A stretch of DNA of 37,599 nucleotides from a virus. Made by a program: the position numbers and the translations under genes. Position 1 is the stretch's first letter. The number at the start of each line of letters is the position of its first letter. The notes below the pieces were generated by a model. That model made no database searches. It was given only the letters and a program-made list of their open reading frames with translations, and was not told the origin of the DNA. The stretch lies in the IMG/VR virus record IMGVR_UViG_3300045012_000070, positions 1 to 37,599 of that record; one strand, written 5' to 3'. Positions 7,430 through 33,948 of this stretch are shown here, in pieces.

Positions 7430-7637
7430 CTAGGGCCTCCTTTCCTCACCCCGTTTTAAGGCGAGGAGATTGTCAATCTTTTCTGTTACTTTGTAGAGTT
7501 GCTGCCATGCTGCTGCAAGCTCGGCTCCAAGTTCGTCAGGTATATAAGCGAAAGAATCGTGCTTTTTATGCCATTCTTCTTCGGGGGCCGTTGTAAATCA
7601 ACCAATCATAGGTTTCGTCTTGATGAATGTATGTCAT
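7430..7637 (-). pseudogene. small gene split by a one-base insertion in a C run
   Basis: The ATG (7637) overlaps the upstream stop (ATGA). The first 17-18 codons (MTYIHQDETYDWLIYNG) read in one frame. After a run of five C (7583-7587, minus strand) the protein-like sequence continues in another frame (EEEWHKKHDSFAYIPDEL...) to TAG at 7430. Dropping one C gives a continuous 68-residue protein. It is either a real frameshift, a sequencing error in a homopolymer, or +1 recoding. The end carries the hairpin motif in coding sequence. Confidence 0.55.
7444..7466 (-). promoter_or_regulatory. copy of the CCTCG/CGGGG hairpin motif
   Basis: On the minus strand: CCTCG, loop CCTTAAAA, CGGGG, then TGAGG. 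The outer bases also pair (CCTC with GAGG), giving two alternative stems. It ends ten bases before the AAAGGAGG site of the 7231-7428 gene. It also encodes the end of the frameshifted gene. Confidence 0.55.
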
Positions 7638-15884: not shown

Positions 15885-17392
15885 ATGAACTAGTCACTAT
15901 GCTTCAACAGCGGTATCCCGATACCGCACTTGAAATTGTTGACGCAATAGACGCCAAACAGCGAAAAGAGAATTTCATTCGCTATTGGGAACCGCAAGAA
16001 CAACAAAGACCCCATTTGGCGTCTTTCACCCCGGATATCAAGATCTTTGGTATTCTTGGCGGCAATCGATCAGGGAAAACCGAAGAAGGTGTGTTTATTG
16101 ATGTTGCTTGGGCCTTGGGAAAAGATTATTTTAAAGGCTTCCCAGCTTATGAATGGGTGAAAGACCTCCCAATTCCTGACCCTCCGGTGGTCGTTTGGGT
16201 CGTAGGATTAGATTATGGCGTTCTCAAAAACGTAATCTGGCACGAGAAATTAAGACAAGGCCGCGGTAAACATCCGCCTTTCCTGCCCCGTGATCCCGAA
16301 GTAATCGAAAAGGTAGTCGACGGTGAGTTCCAAGTCTATTTCAAGAACGGATCTATTATCATTGGCAAGTCAGCTGATGCTGGCCGAGAGAAGTTCCAGG
16401 GAGCTAGCGTTGATCTCGTCCACATTGACGAAGAGTGTGAGGTCGCGGTGTTTGATGAATGCTATCAACGAACCGCTGATTGCGCCGGAAAGTTACTTCT
16501 TACCCTCACCCCTCTTGTCGACGTCGCCTCAGGAGTCCGTACTCCCTGGGTGTTTGACCTCTTCGAAGAGGTTAATCAAGGCAGGAAAGATGTGGTTTTT
16601 TGTAAGTTAAATGTAATGGCCAATCCGTACGTCCCCTCGGAGGAGAAGACCAAGTTAGCAGAGAAGTGGGCCGGTCACTTTGAAGAAAAGGCGCGCCTAT
16701 ATGGGGACTTCATCCAGCGGTCAGGTCTTGTATATCCACATTGGAAGCCCGCAGTTCACTGCATTGATCTGCCGAAAATACCCCGAGAGTGGCGACGACT
16801 GGTCTCAATTGACCCAGCAGCTACTGGAACGACTGCTGCAATATGGGCAGCTGTTAAACCAGGCACCGACGATCTCTATCTTTATCGCGAATACTATGAG
16901 TCGAACGCCACTGTCTCAGACCACGCTAAGAACATCTTATCTGTGAACGGCGGCGAAGCAATTGACACCTGGCTACTAGATCCAAAATGGGCTTCGCAAC
17001 GAAATAACGAGACACATAAAACAGGACTCCAATTATATCGTGAAAGTGGTATTCCTGTGAGACCAGCTCCTGTTGAGTACGAGGATTATGGTTTAAATGT
17101 TTCGCGCGAATACATAAACGCTACGCTTGAACCAACTTCCCGACATGCGAAGGTTTTTGTTTCAAAGACTTTGAAGAATTTTCAACATGAGATACAACAT
17201 TATGTATGGGATTTTTTTGCTAAGGGAGAGCAAAAAGGTTTATCAAAAGATAAACCGATGAAGCGAGCAGACCACTTAATGAATGCGTTCCAGTATTTAT
17301 GTTGTATGAGGCCTCGTGCAAGAAAGATGAGAGGGGGATATGAAGGAGAAGATGATAGGCAGAAAGCGTCGCAGCTTAATTCATATACCTAG
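15872..17392 (+). CDS. terL: terminase large subunit
   Basis: 506 residues. ATPase: Walker A GGNRSGKT (63-70), Walker B DLVHIDEE (181-188), coupling motif LTLTPL (210-215). Nuclease: VSIDPA (Asp 314), WLLDPKW (Asp 370) and KRADHLMNAFQY near the C-terminus supply metal-binding acids. It drives DNA into the procapsid and cuts it. The start is a TTG with AGGG upstream, possibly forced by the endonuclease insertion. It ends in TAG followed at once by TGA. The 3' half looks more AT-rich than the 5' half. Confidence 0.9.
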   Translation: MSRVDELVTMLQQRYPDTALEIVDAIDAKQRKENFIRYWEPQEQQRPHLASFTPDIKIFGILGGNRSGKTEEGVFIDVAWALGKDYFKGFPAYEWVKDLPIPDPPVVVWVVGLDYGVLKNVIWHEKLRQGRGKHPPFLPRDPEVIEKVVDGEFQVYFKNGSIIIGKSADAGREKFQGASVDLVHIDEECEVAVFDECYQRTADCAGKLLLTLTPLVDVASGVRTPWVFDLFEEVNQGRKDVVFCKLNVMANPYVPSEEKTKLAEKWAGHFEEKARLYGDFIQRSGLVYPHWKPAVHCIDLPKIPREWRRLVSIDPAATGTTAAIWAAVKPGTDDLYLYREYYESNATVSDHAKNILSVNGGEAIDTWLLDPKWASQRNNETHKTGLQLYRESGIPVRPAPVEYEDYGLNVSREYINATLEPTSRHAKVFVSKTLKNFQHEIQHYVWDFFAKGEQKGLSKDKPMKRADHLMNAFQYLCCMRPRARKMRGGYEGEDDRQKASQLNSYT

Positions 17393-17771
17393 TGAAACCG
17401 TTTTACAAATGTTTGACGCACGGGTTTCAGTAAATAAGATTGCAAAACATTTTAATGTTGCATGGGGAACAATAGCCAAAGTCTTAAAGGCCAACAATCG
17501 TCCTACAATTCGACCATCCATCTGGGTAATTGATGATGCCGGATATCTCGGCAAAAAAGTAAAGAATCAAACAGTCAGGCAACACAGAGAAATTGCGGAG
17601 AAGGCCCTGGGACGAAAACTTAAACGGCACGAAGTTGTTCATCATATCAACGGAAATAAACAAGACAATCGAAATGAAAATCTTTTGATTTGTGATAGAT
17701 CCTACCATCGTTGGTTGCATGAACGAATGTCTTTTTTGTATCAGCAAGAACATTTTACCTCCTCGCAGTAA
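17340..17771 (+). CDS. HNH homing endonuclease
   Basis: 143 residues. An N-terminal helix-turn-helix-like segment (VSVNKIAKHFNVAWGTIAKV, about 28-47) precedes an HNH domain: EVVHHINGNKQDNRNENL (about 97-114), with a further His in YHRWLHERM. The start overlaps the terL end by 53 bases; ATG 17352 with AAGGAG is a close alternative. AT-rich like the LAGLIDADG gene. Such genes commonly sit beside terL and may help packaging or simply home. Its TAA lies inside a hairpin-motif copy. Confidence 0.8.
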   Translation: MKEKMIGRKRRSLIHIPSETVLQMFDARVSVNKIAKHFNVAWGTIAKVLKANNRPTIRPSIWVIDDAGYLGKKVKNQTVRQHREIAEKALGRKLKRHEVVHHINGNKQDNRNENLLICDRSYHRWLHERMSFLYQQEHFTSSQ

Positions 17772-17782
17772 AACGGGGTCAG
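17761..17782 (+). promoter_or_regulatory. copy of the CCTCG/CGGGG hairpin motif
   Basis: CCTCG, loop CAGTAAAA, CGGGG, then TCAG, five bases before the ATG of 17787-17972. There is no separate Shine-Dalgarno for that gene, so GGGGT in the motif's 3' arm may itself act as the ribosome site, and folding would mask it. Confidence 0.6.
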
Positions 17783-20899: not shown

Positions 20900-21103
20900 G
20901 TGTATCACTTGGATTATCCTGGGCTTTCTCAAACCCAAGTCCCTGATTCTCCTTCAAGCCCTGAATATCTCGGGATGGGGAATCCGGTTCCTTATAAACC
21001 GATGGCCGGGAGGGCCGATCGCCTGTCAGCAAACATCGTAGGGGGCGGGGAATCAACTCTCGGCGCCGGAGGCTACCCTGCTTCTAGTGCTCCTGTTTTG
21101 TAA
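20900..21103 (+). CDS. hypothetical 67-aa protein, GTG start
   Basis: MYHLDYPGLSQTQVPDSPSS..., Pro/Ser/Gly-rich. Shares GRAD[KR]..[AS]N[VI] with the gene upstream. GTG start one base after that gene's TAA. Probably a small disordered virion or assembly peptide. Confidence 0.45.
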   Translation: MYHLDYPGLSQTQVPDSPSSPEYLGMGNPVPYKPMAGRADRLSANIVGGGESTLGAGGYPASSAPVL

Positions 21104-21338
21104 TTTATGCTTGATTGGCTTAGACTCGAAGATCAGTTCCGAGAGATGGAAAAAATTCGGAATGGGAATCGAACTCAATCCTTTGGTTCGGCACTCGCCA
21201 CATCCATCCCTCGCATTTTGGGGCCTGAACCTTTTAGTTCTGGGGGTTGCGTCCCTTTACCAACCATTACTTTGGGTGCTACTAGGTGCCAAGCTGAGCC
21301 TCGCGGCTCTTCAACTCCGAAGTCTCACCCCGTTTTAA
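21087..21338 (+). CDS. membrane protein, two helices, 83 aa
   Basis: GTG start at 21087. A hydrophobic N-terminus (LLFCNLCLIGLDS), a loop with GIELNPLVR, then a long hydrophobic stretch (LAFWGLNLLVLGVASLYQ and PLLWVLLGAKLSLAAL). The ELNPLVR block followed by two helices resembles the DUF5658-like membrane family. The overlapping frame 21107-21349 starts with ATG but loses protein-like composition. Ribosome site weak. Confidence 0.45.
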   Translation: MLLFCNLCLIGLDSKISSERWKKFGMGIELNPLVRHSPHPSLAFWGLNLLVLGVASLYQPLLWVLLGAKLSLAALQLRSLTPF

Positions 21339-21344
21339 GCGAGG
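21324..21344 (-). promoter_or_regulatory. copy of the CCTCG/CGGGG hairpin motif, reversed
   Basis: Minus-strand reading: CCTCG, loop CTTAAAA, CGGGG, TGAG. It sits five bases before the ATG of 21349-21573, but in the opposite direction to that gene. GCGAGGA from its arm would act as the ribosome site of the rightward gene. Confidence 0.55.
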
Positions 21345-21348
21345 AATA

Positions 21349-21573
21349 ATGCCGACTAACGAACCTCTTCGTCCCGCCCTGTCTCCCAACTCCGCCCAAG
21401 ATCCTGATGTTCTTGAGTGTTTGTGTGTGTTCGGGACGGTGCCTTTAGCAACCAACGGAGACTCCCTTCAAACTCGCGCTGACTATGCCCTGTGGGATCC
21501 AACCACCGGCGCTTACGTGTCAATTCAAAATTCCAATGCAGGCACCACCGCGTGCCTCAAAATAGGTCAATAA
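21349..21573 (+). CDS. tandem family member 1 (divergent), 74 aa
   Basis: Contains VPLATNGDSLQTRADYALWD followed by P-TTG-AYV, matching the family core (NG..[AL]..[DE]..D..LWD..[ST]G..V). GCGAGGA before the ATG. First of five related genes at 21349-22638. Likely a small beta-type virion protein. Known family not recognised. Confidence 0.5.
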   Translation: MPTNEPLRPALSPNSAQDPDVLECLCVFGTVPLATNGDSLQTRADYALWDPTTGAYVSIQNSNAGTTACLKIGQ

Positions 21574-21574
21574 C

Positions 21575-21862
21575 ATGTCTAACCGTTACAATGAAACCAA
21601 CAGTTCCGGGTTCGTAACCCTCAATTCCAACACTGTAATTGGGGTTGACAACTACACCGATCAATACAGCCAAGTCCCGTTGGCCCAACAGGTCAATCAA
21701 CCAGGAGTGAGTTTTTATCCGGTTATTACTGTAACCGCCAATGGTCATGCAGTCGAGCGAGACGGAGATATGGGTTTGTGGGACACTGTTTCGGGTGTTG
21801 CTGTTAGAACCGATCAATGCACGTTTGGGCCGGGGCTTAACGCAAACTACCCCAATACTTAA
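21575..21862 (+). CDS. tandem family member 2, 95 aa
   Basis: MSNRYNETNSSGFVTL... and ITVTANGHAVERDGDMGLWD, then TVSG.AV. It is closest to member 5 (22378-22638): both start MS.RYNE.N..G.VT, have NYT..Y, and share ANGHAVE.DGD.GLWDTVSG; DNA is identical over GCCAATGGTCATGCAGT. Ser/Thr/Asn-rich. Probable recent duplication. Confidence 0.6.
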   Translation: MSNRYNETNSSGFVTLNSNTVIGVDNYTDQYSQVPLAQQVNQPGVSFYPVITVTANGHAVERDGDMGLWDTVSGVAVRTDQCTFGPGLNANYPNT

Positions 21863-21877
21863 TCAAAGGAAATTAAT

Positions 21878-22108
21878 ATGGCCGCAAGACCAACAATTAC
21901 AGATGTAGCGATGTCAAATTTCGGATTCCCTATGACAGGGGAGGTTCAAAAAACCCCTATCATTGGGTCTGATGGCAATGCTGGATATGCTTGGAGCACA
22001 GGTGCCTCCGGCGACACCATCACCATCGGGGCCGATTATGGAATTTACTCTACCACCCACTCGTCCAATGTGGCCGTCGAGATGACTACCTTCCGGGATC
22101 CAGTCTAA
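21878..22108 (+). CDS. tandem family member 3 (divergent), 76 aa
   Basis: GDTITIGADYGIYSTTHSSN aligns with the family core (ITV.....D.G.WDT.SG). AAAGGAAATTAAT before the ATG, the same leader as at 27991. The core has Gly-Ile-Tyr in place of LWD. Function unknown. Confidence 0.45.
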   Translation: MAARPTITDVAMSNFGFPMTGEVQKTPIIGSDGNAGYAWSTGASGDTITIGADYGIYSTTHSSNVAVEMTTFRDPV

Positions 22109-22111
22109 CCC

Positions 22112-22378
22112 ATGAGCAATCGAGCCAATTCAACCAACTCAATCGGAATCGGCGTTACTCAAACCCAGGCCGGCAACGTGGCCACTTCGCAAACCTGGGT
22201 CACCACCTTTCCAAGACCTGCGGGCGGAACTATTCTCGTGACCAAGGCGGTTCAGGGGGCCTCGGTCAATGACAACGTCGAGCGAGATTCTGACGGCGGC
22301 TTCTGGGATACCACAGCTGGAGTTCCAGTTGCCCCTGAAAACACCAATGTCGGAATAAACGACATGGAGAGTGTATAA
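22112..22378 (+). CDS. tandem family member 4, 88 aa
   Basis: MSNRANSTNSIGIGVTQTQ... and TILVTKAVQGASVNDNVERD, S-DGGFWDTTAG-VPV. Same order of conserved blocks as members 2 and 5. It ends TAATG onto member 5. No cysteine; exported signal absent, so probably virion-located. Confidence 0.55.
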   Translation: MSNRANSTNSIGIGVTQTQAGNVATSQTWVTTFPRPAGGTILVTKAVQGASVNDNVERDSDGGFWDTTAGVPVAPENTNVGINDMESV

Positions 22379-22638
22379 TGTCTATTAGATACAACGAAGC
22401 AAACAACGGGGGCATTGTCACCATCTCAGGTGGCAACATGCCCGTCCAAAATTACACCAACAAATACCAACCCACCTCTCGAACCGCCGGTCAGGGCGGA
22501 GCAGGAGCCGCGGCCGCGATTACGGTTGTGGCCAATGGTCATGCAGTGGAGGTTGATGGTGACGGGGGCCTCTGGGACACGGTCTCCGGAGTCATTGTTC
22601 TGGCCGAACAAACCACCTTAATGTGTATCGGAACCTAA
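22378..22638 (+). CDS. tandem family member 5, 86 aa
   Basis: MSIRYNEANNGGIVTISGGN... and ITVVANGHAVEVDGDGGLWD, TVSGV-IVL. Best match to member 2. Starts at a TAATG junction. It is followed by the structured RNA at 22647-22732, which falls in its 3' untranslated region. Confidence 0.6.
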   Translation: MSIRYNEANNGGIVTISGGNMPVQNYTNKYQPTSRTAGQGGAGAAAAITVVANGHAVEVDGDGGLWDTVSGVIVLAEQTTLMCIGT

Positions 22639-22646
22639 ACCAAGTT

Positions 22647-22732
22647 ACCCTGGGTCGAAGCGCGTTCCTCCCTCTTTCGCGCCAACCTTCCGCCCTCCTC
22701 CCTGCCTCGCGTAGAAGGTTAAGACCCAGGGT
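22647..22732 (+). ncRNA. candidate three-way-junction RNA with CU-rich loops
   Basis: A closing stem of ten perfect pairs (22647-22656 with 22723-22732, ACCCTGGGTC/GACCCAGGGT) encloses two hairpins. Hairpin 1 has GCGCG (22660-22664) with CGCGC (22678-22682), loop TTCCTCCCTCTTT. Hairpin 2 has AACCTTC (22684-22690) with GAAGGTT (22714-22720), plus three inner pairs, loop CCTCCTCCCTGCCTC. Both loops carry CCTCC, complementary to Shine-Dalgarno sequences. The RNA sits between two genes and is followed by a hairpin-motif copy. Resemblance to 'cuckoo' CU-rich-loop sRNAs is by analogy only. Confidence 0.6.
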
Positions 22733-22738
22733 TATTCT

Positions 22739-22760
22739 CCTCGCTACAAAACGGGGTTAG
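22739..22760 (+). promoter_or_regulatory. copy of the CCTCG/CGGGG hairpin motif
   Basis: CCTCG, loop CTACAAAA, CGGGG, TTAG, eight bases before ATG 22769. No other Shine-Dalgarno is present before that gene, so GGGGTTAGG in the motif may be its ribosome site. Confidence 0.6.
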
Positions 22761-22768
22761 GACATCGA

Positions 22769-23059
22769 ATGGAAGTTATTGGACGAACAGTCGAAAACAA
22801 AGATGGAACAACTCGTGACGAGTTTGTGGTCCGATGTGAAATTCATGACTGGTATTATAAAGGCCAGCCTCCTATCACCCACGGGTGTCGGGAGTGCTGG
22901 CATTGTTTTTACTTCGCTCAGTTAGCCAAGTCCGAAGGTGACAAGTACACCAACTTTGCCCAACTAGAATCCGCAATCAAGAAAATGGCGGAAGAGATTG
23001 ACAAGGGAACTTGGGACTTCAAACCCGATTTTGAAATGAAAATCGAACATGAAAATTAA
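22769..23059 (+). CDS. hypothetical cysteine-containing protein, 96 aa
   Basis: Cysteines and histidines grouped as C..H.W (residues 23-27) and H.CRECWHC (38-45), a possible zinc-binding or thiol site. The C-terminal half is helical and acidic. It is followed by, and overlaps by 11 bases, the exported tail-spike gene. Not recognised. Confidence 0.55.
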   Translation: MEVIGRTVENKDGTTRDEFVVRCEIHDWYYKGQPPITHGCRECWHCFYFAQLAKSEGDKYTNFAQLESAIKKMAEEIDKGTWDFKPDFEMKIEHEN

Positions 23060-30479: not shown

Positions 30480-30503
30480 CCTCCTCACATAAAACGGGGT
30501 GAG
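30480..30503 (+). promoter_or_regulatory. copy of the hairpin motif (variant stem)
   Basis: CCTCCTCAC, ATAAAA, CGGGGTGAG: here CTCAC (30484-30488) pairs perfectly with GTGAG (30499-30503), while the inner CCTC/GGGG pairing is also possible. The gene at 30517 has its own AGAGGGA ribosome site downstream of the motif. Confidence 0.55.
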
Positions 30504-33525: not shown

Positions 33526-33948
33526 ATGGATGCCGAGTTAATCCAACTCGCCAAACAAACGGCCACCAAGTACGGGTTAGACCCCGTACTTGTGTGTGCT
33601 GTGATTGAACAAGAATCGGCCTGGAACCAATGGGCTGCTAGGTTTGAACCCCGTTTTTTAGCGAGGTATATACAACCTCTTGGGCTCTTTGATCTCACCG
33701 AGGCCAATCTCCGATCAACCTCATTTGGGCTCATGCAATTGATGGGCGAGGTGGCCAGGGAGCTTGGTTATAAAGGCCCGTTGTGTCAGTTGTGCGATCC
33801 CCCTGTGGGGCTGGTCCTCGGATGCCAGCACCTCGCTAATAAGTTTAAGCAACACCCCGATGTTACCGCGGCTCTCCTCGCTTGGAACGGGGGCGCCAAC
33901 CTTGATTATCCGGCCCAAGTTTTGGCTCGAATGGACAAGTATAAATGA
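33526..33948 (+). CDS. lytic transglycosylase (SLT-like)
   Basis: 140 residues from ATG 33526. Motifs of the SLT/lysozyme fold: VIEQESAWN with the catalytic Glu at about residue 30, FEPRFLARY, FGLMQLMGEVA (about 67-77) and LLAWNGG near the end. It cleaves peptidoglycan between MurNAc and GlcNAc, probably to let the DNA through or to lyse. No signal peptide. A reversed hairpin-motif copy lies inside the coding sequence (33645-33666). Confidence 0.8.
   Translation: MDAELIQLAKQTATKYGLDPVLVCAVIEQESAWNQWAARFEPRFLARYIQPLGLFDLTEANLRSTSFGLMQLMGEVARELGYKGPLCQLCDPPVGLVLGCQHLANKFKQHPDVTAALLAWNGGANLDYPAQVLARMDKYK
33645..33666 (-). promoter_or_regulatory. copy of the hairpin motif within the lysin gene, reversed
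   Basis: Minus-strand reading: CCTCG, loop CTAAAAAA, CGGGG, TTCA. It encodes part of FEPRFLARY, a segment that the protein family also conserves, so the match could be partly forced by coding. It is the only copy well inside a gene. Confidence 0.4.

Follow-up and report, generated by a model that had tools for sequence, protein, structure and literature searches.

The C4 RNA of phages P1 and P7 consists of stems P1, P2 and P3 with two target-binding loops, is derived from a longer transcript and covers a ribosome-binding site with one of its loops (PMC5320573). The alpha-r14 sRNAs combine conserved CU-rich anti-Shine-Dalgarno (anti-SD) loops with divergent stems and silence mRNAs by occluding the ribosome-binding site (PMC10746234, PMC3927594). 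CcsR RNAs adjoin a small protein gene (PMC10253847), and the C-rich-loop sRNAs RNAIII, CyaR and AbcR1 have loops with partial anti-SD sequence (PMC3927594). Here, we describe a structured RNA that resembles these systems in a viral stretch of 37,599 nucleotides, which was analyzed as a whole and is referred to below as the window.

RNA folding of the window revealed a three-way junction on the + strand (Table 1), in which a closing stem of 10 perfect pairs surrounds two hairpins. The second of these pairs AACCTTC and CGC with GCG and, beyond the TA bulge, GAAGGTT. The folding energy of positions 22640-22740 was -36.2 kcal/mol, compared with a shuffle mean of -22.4 (s.d. 3.1; z = -4.5), and none of 200 shuffles folded as well. 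An earlier note on this DNA had claimed a perfect ten-pair closing stem around two hairpins and a structured RNA that fills an intergenic space. These claims hold: the stem is present at the same coordinates, the element occupies the gap between the two flanking ORFs, and both the fold and the covariation described below support a structured RNA. The note had also placed CCTCC in both hairpin loops, which is correct for the window, whereas among the close relatives only a few keep CCUCC in hairpin 1.

Table 1. Features of the RNA element and its surroundings in the window
Feature	Position	Strand	Basis or remark
Three-way-junction RNA, core P1 to P1'	22647..22732	+	Fold, covariation, comparison with outer relatives
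P1, closing stem 5' strand, ACCCTGGGTC	22647..22656	+	Outer 8 pairs covary in relatives
Hairpin P2 (hairpin 1), GCGCG/CGCGC	22660..22682	+	Fold, covariation; CCCUCU core conserved
Loop of hairpin 1, TTCCTCCCTCTTT	22665..22677	+	
Hairpin P3/P4 (hairpin 2), TA bulge 22712-22713	22684..22720	+	Fold, covariation
Loop of hairpin 2, CCTCCTCCCTGCCTC	22694..22708	+	
P1', closing stem 3' strand, GACCCAGGGT	22723..22732	+	Sequence, covariation
Flank CAAGTT	22641..22646	+	Many close relatives have a similar flank; possible weak extension of P1
Membrane-protein-like gene	21087..21338	+	Resemblance suggests homology to outer-relative gene
Upstream gene, last of tandem family (DGDxGLWDTVSG)	22378..22638	+	Neighbour, outside the RNA
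Downstream gene, 96-aa protein, CxxH...CxxC pattern	22769..23059	+	Conserved neighbour in most relatives
Dispersed repeat, window sites	7445-7468, 17759-17782, 21327-21346, 22737-22760, 30481-30500, 33648-33668	-, +, -, +, +, - (in this order)	

An alignment of the upstream tandem gene family (A1), used as query, retrieved nine viral loci, and in seven of them (six distinct) the element lies directly 3' of the tandem gene. It was identified with a covariance model in the remaining two as well (L015 and L020), where its position differs slightly, and a further member, L089, was reached through the downstream gene. With near-identical contigs counted once, ten phages carry the RNA, that is, the window and nine related contigs, in addition to the outer forms described below. 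It occurs once per record in the nine whole records searched (that of the window included), and it is absent from L002, which is related through the spike gene only.

Since hairpin P2 was mis-aligned by MAFFT, a structural alignment was seeded from a single-sequence covariance model. In this 10-sequence alignment, which was fitted to the structure and hence biased towards it, 99.1% of the 217 paired cells were standard pairs, both sides had changed in 17 of the 22 pairs, and the covariation score was 0.775 compared with 0.187 after shuffling. None of 500 shuffles reached the observed values, and the pairing signal was lost when the partners were slid. A hand alignment of 7 sequences was concordant: all of its 158 cells (158/158) were paired, comprising 154 Watson-Crick and 4 G-U pairs and no A-C pair. 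The occurrence of G-U but not A-C pairs favors an RNA of the + strand, which is the late-gene direction. Across the ten related phages nearly every variable pair shows compensatory change, and pairing is retained although the letters of the stems change. Because the structure is kept in this way, the element is more than a chance fold, and it is near certain that it is a genuine structured RNA. The earlier note had named missing covariation and stems that are lost in related genomes as grounds for rejecting it, and on both counts the result speaks for the element. Among the unpaired letters, CCCUCU in loop 1 and UAA in the last junction are kept in the close clade. A CUNCUGCCU-like run is also conserved there in the second loop, with L089 having lost it, and CUCCU is present in hairpin 2 of nine of the ten close members.

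A wider lineage was collected with a TerL alignment (A11), which gave 79 loci, all but one of them 47-75% identical. Strong matches to the close-clade covariance model were confined to the close clade, and its weak matches drew attention to the leader region of genes homologous to the downstream CxxH...CxxC gene. We also used a descriptor that required a hairpin whose pyrimidine loop contains CCCTC, enclosed by a closing stem of 8 or more pairs, with no demand for a second hairpin. Over 0.92 Mb it gave 35 sense matches (including the close clade and some near-identical contigs), compared with 3 antisense matches and 1 in shuffled DNA. In 18 contigs, whose TerL is about 47-62% identical, a shorter three-way junction with mostly ACCCUCC in the loop was found near the equivalent site. 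In these outer forms P1 has about 8-11 pairs and the hairpin loop reads (C)ACCCUCC or close to it; the second hairpin usually has a short ordinary loop, and some members have a CCCUCUC junction strand. Convincing outer elements sit at the 3' end of a membrane-protein-like gene, and the following start codon is mostly 13-27 nt past the closing stem.

Inspection of the site in loci without descriptor matches added three-way junctions in L119, L139 and L153 and reduced forms in L131 and L168/L169/L176. All these additions, found by position rather than by loop motif, have CCCUCC in their loops. Among contigs fetched later, L200 and L211 carry the RNA, and L204 and L214, in which the CxxH...CxxC gene has another upstream neighbour, have none at that site. 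The same is true of several distant members at this site (for example, L116, L160, L163, L164, L170-L172 and L177). A one-sequence outer-clade model reached only 4 loci, and the remaining outer members were assigned by descriptor, position and folding. Position, architecture and loop character, rather than one covariance model for both, lead us to infer that the inner and the outer forms belong to one family. Overall, the RNA was found in about 28 phage contigs, all from metagenomes. The phage collection contained no cultured close relative, the portal, capsid and TerL matches being all less than 60% identical and, among the matches listed, about 31% or less. As a side observation, TerL spans both ends of the 67,168-base record G007 (L095 and L096), which is therefore probably a complete circular map.

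Searches by primary sequence were less informative. A blastn search of phages with the element as query yielded no useful match. The pattern CCCTGGGTC...GACCCAGGG had 9 viral matches, none of which folds into the element. The pattern CCCTCTTTC...CTGCCTCGCG had two viral matches, L021 and L023, both unrelated, and 53 matches in bacterial genomes, from which only weak matches to the model resulted (best E 0.09); these were taken as chance.

No single gene accompanies the RNA throughout. In the outer relatives it lies at the 3' end of the probable homologue, judged by resemblance, of the window's membrane-protein-like gene, and in the window clade the tandem genes stand between that gene and the RNA. 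In L162 the RNA follows the membrane-protein-like gene and the CxxH...CxxC gene is 4.3 kb further on, and in L015 and L016 a different gene is downstream. Such variation would be expected if the RNA does not serve the next gene only.

Some other features of this region were also observed. The tandem small genes (21349-22638) carry a repeated DGDxGLWDTxxGV-like motif and vary in number and order among phages. Homologues of the 96-aa CxxH...CxxC protein are present in 42 of the 79 TerL-related loci; the protein had no convincing Pfam or PHROGs match, and no relatives were found with it as sole query. ORFs resembling HNH endonucleases in sequence occupy different points of the same late region in the window (17340-17771), L012 (3670-4017) and L017 (116-469). 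In addition, a dispersed repeat of the form CTCCTCGC(n3)AAAACGGGGT(n)AG occurs in either orientation and frequently where genes begin or end, with 3 full-pattern matches compared with 0.01 expected and more with looser patterns. It is also present in the relatives L012-L017, and its near-dyad CCYCGYTT-A-AARCGRGG suggests an operator-like site.

Across the lineage the stems diverge completely and the loops stay pyrimidine-rich, usually with an anti-SD core, which suggests selection on the loops. CCUCC complements the SD core, and it is plausible from these letters that the loops are able to pair with ribosome-binding sites. This reading is not unique, because any pyrimidine loop partly complements SD sequences. 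The RNA probably has a role in regulating translation. On the basis of loop conservation and the alpha-r14 and C4 precedents, we favor an operon-derived phage antisense RNA that would block ribosome-binding sites via its loops, a tentative proposal to which we give somewhat less than an even chance. The RNA would be made as part of a late phage transcript and either be released from it or act within it, with the three-way junction as a scaffold that keeps the pyrimidine-rich anti-SD segments open. These segments could pair with purine-rich ribosome-binding sites on other mRNAs of the phage or on those of the host, and translation initiation might then be blocked as with the P1/P7 C4 RNA and the alpha-r14 (NfeR1) sRNAs. 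Against such an antisense RNA, the loop of the outer second hairpin is short and ordinary, so that two anti-SD hairpin loops are not universal, and a strict CCUCC, nearly constant in hairpin 1 of outer members, is not conserved in that of the close clade. A search for loop complements elsewhere in the window found no target, the longest perfect complement being 8 nt. The start of the membrane-protein gene was the best target of its phage in only 2 of 13 cases. The loops of outer-clade members pair slightly better with the 250 nt upstream of their own RNA than with the corresponding regions from other phages (p 0.009), a result of one among 15 tests that fails correction.

The main rival is a cis leader or intercistronic element whose loops pair with the SD of the downstream gene, or which limits re-initiation after the upstream stop; we consider it possible but rather doubtful. 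It would account for the start codon 11-38 nt after P1 in most members, for the overlap of the RNA with the end of the upstream gene in most outer relatives, and for the fact that pairing of the loops is better with the downstream 40 nt than with shuffled versions of these (-6.3 vs -4.7). However, a phage's own downstream region was no better than that of another phage (1626 of 5000 permutations as good; p 0.60 for 60 nt, and 400 nt likewise unsupported), a test that detects phage-specific fit and is blind to generic SD pairing. Moreover, the downstream gene varies (L015, L016, L142, L152 and L162), and some members have no clear SD (L181, L020 and L089). Alternatively, an RNA-binding protein of the phage or the host might recognize the pyrimidine loops, and the product of the neighbouring CxxH...CxxC gene is a possible candidate. 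In favor of this reading, the conservation of exact loop letters (for instance, CUGCCU in the close clade) exceeds the needs of SD pairing, a gene for a small CxxH/CxxC protein is nearby in most phages, and CcsR with CcaF1 provides an example of an RNA located next to the gene of a small RNA-binding protein (PMC10253847). We nevertheless regard this as unlikely, given the 4.3 kb between RNA and gene in L162 and a protein that matches no known RNA-binding family and was modelled by AlphaFold with low confidence (pLDDT 48). A sponge for CsrA-like factors, as proposed in the earlier note, has no support: a CsrB-type sponge has GGA in its hairpin loops, and the loops of the transcribed (+) strand are pyrimidine-rich and without GGA.

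A stable closing stem within the operon, between upstream and downstream gene blocks, would also suit an element of late-mRNA processing or stability that separates these blocks and in which loop sequence is secondary. This explanation is quite improbable, as it leaves the conserved loop letters and the freely varying stems unexplained. The element is not an intrinsic terminator because no U-tract follows the closing stem, and no fitting intrinsic terminator or sigma-70 promoter was found for the RNA. Least probable by far is an element that acts at the DNA level (as a cruciform or as a site of packaging or replication) or a structure that arose by chance, with which the single copy per genome would agree, but not the compensatory changes, the presence of G-U and lack of A-C pairs on the + strand, the strand-specific pyrimidine loops or the result of 0/500 shuffles. 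Nothing ties the element to packaging, another role that had been suggested for it. A bolder form of the antisense idea, in which a late RNA imitates the anti-SD end of 16S rRNA and represses a broad range of SD-dependent messages from the host and from other phage genes, is a long shot. If true, weakly SD-dependent late genes would be favored, which would amount to a host-to-phage or early-to-late translational switch. Strong SD sites seem to be more frequent per length in the opposite-strand module than in the structural one, both in the window and in four long relatives, on crude gene calls, with an effect that is uneven between contigs and with an assumed timing of the modules. This distribution would agree with a late RNA that acts on messages rich in SD sites, and it is taken as a lead only.

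Comparison with known systems places the element close to two of them. With C4 (RF01695) it has in common that it is a phage RNA of similar size with stems P1/P2/P3 and loops that would face targets (PMC5320573, PMC12197685), and its closing stem with two hairpins is a C4 feature. No Rfam 15 family matched the window at gathering, and the elements of the window, L018, L181 and L153 gave no Rfam match up to E 5. Furthermore, the element lies among late structural genes, whereas C4 lies in an immunity operon, and the searches near it found general SD complementarity but no specific target. CU-rich anti-SD loops on diverging stems, as in alpha-r14/NfeR1/SmelA075-SmelA099 and CcsR, are both present in the phage element, and positions 22694-22702 in the loop of hairpin 2 match the alpha-r14 anti-SD motif, CCUCCUCCC, exactly (PMC10746234). 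This motif is not identical in every loop, the others being related but variable pyrimidine runs. In contrast to the separate modules of alpha-r14/cuckoo RNAs, the hairpins are enclosed in a three-way junction, and there is one copy per genome, in phages, rather than the several copies of the cuckoo type. The 'cuckoo' label of the earlier note is thus a good functional analogy with regard to loops and diverging stems, but membership does not follow, considering these differences and the lack of an Rfam match. RNAIII, CyaR and AbcR1 share partial anti-SD loops with the element, but they are regulatory RNAs of bacteria and differ from it in architecture and context. Taken together, we have an RNA family that is absent from Rfam, shows strong covariation in the close clade and belongs to a lineage without a cultured close relative. 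If the loops do act on ribosome-binding sites, small constructs in a laboratory strain would allow a direct test of whether phages steer translation with anti-SD RNAs. By Rfam and the features tested the element is neither C4 nor cuckoo/alpha-r14, although it may work like them; in that case it would represent the phage equivalent of the anti-SD sRNAs of Alphaproteobacteria, built on a scaffold like that of C4.
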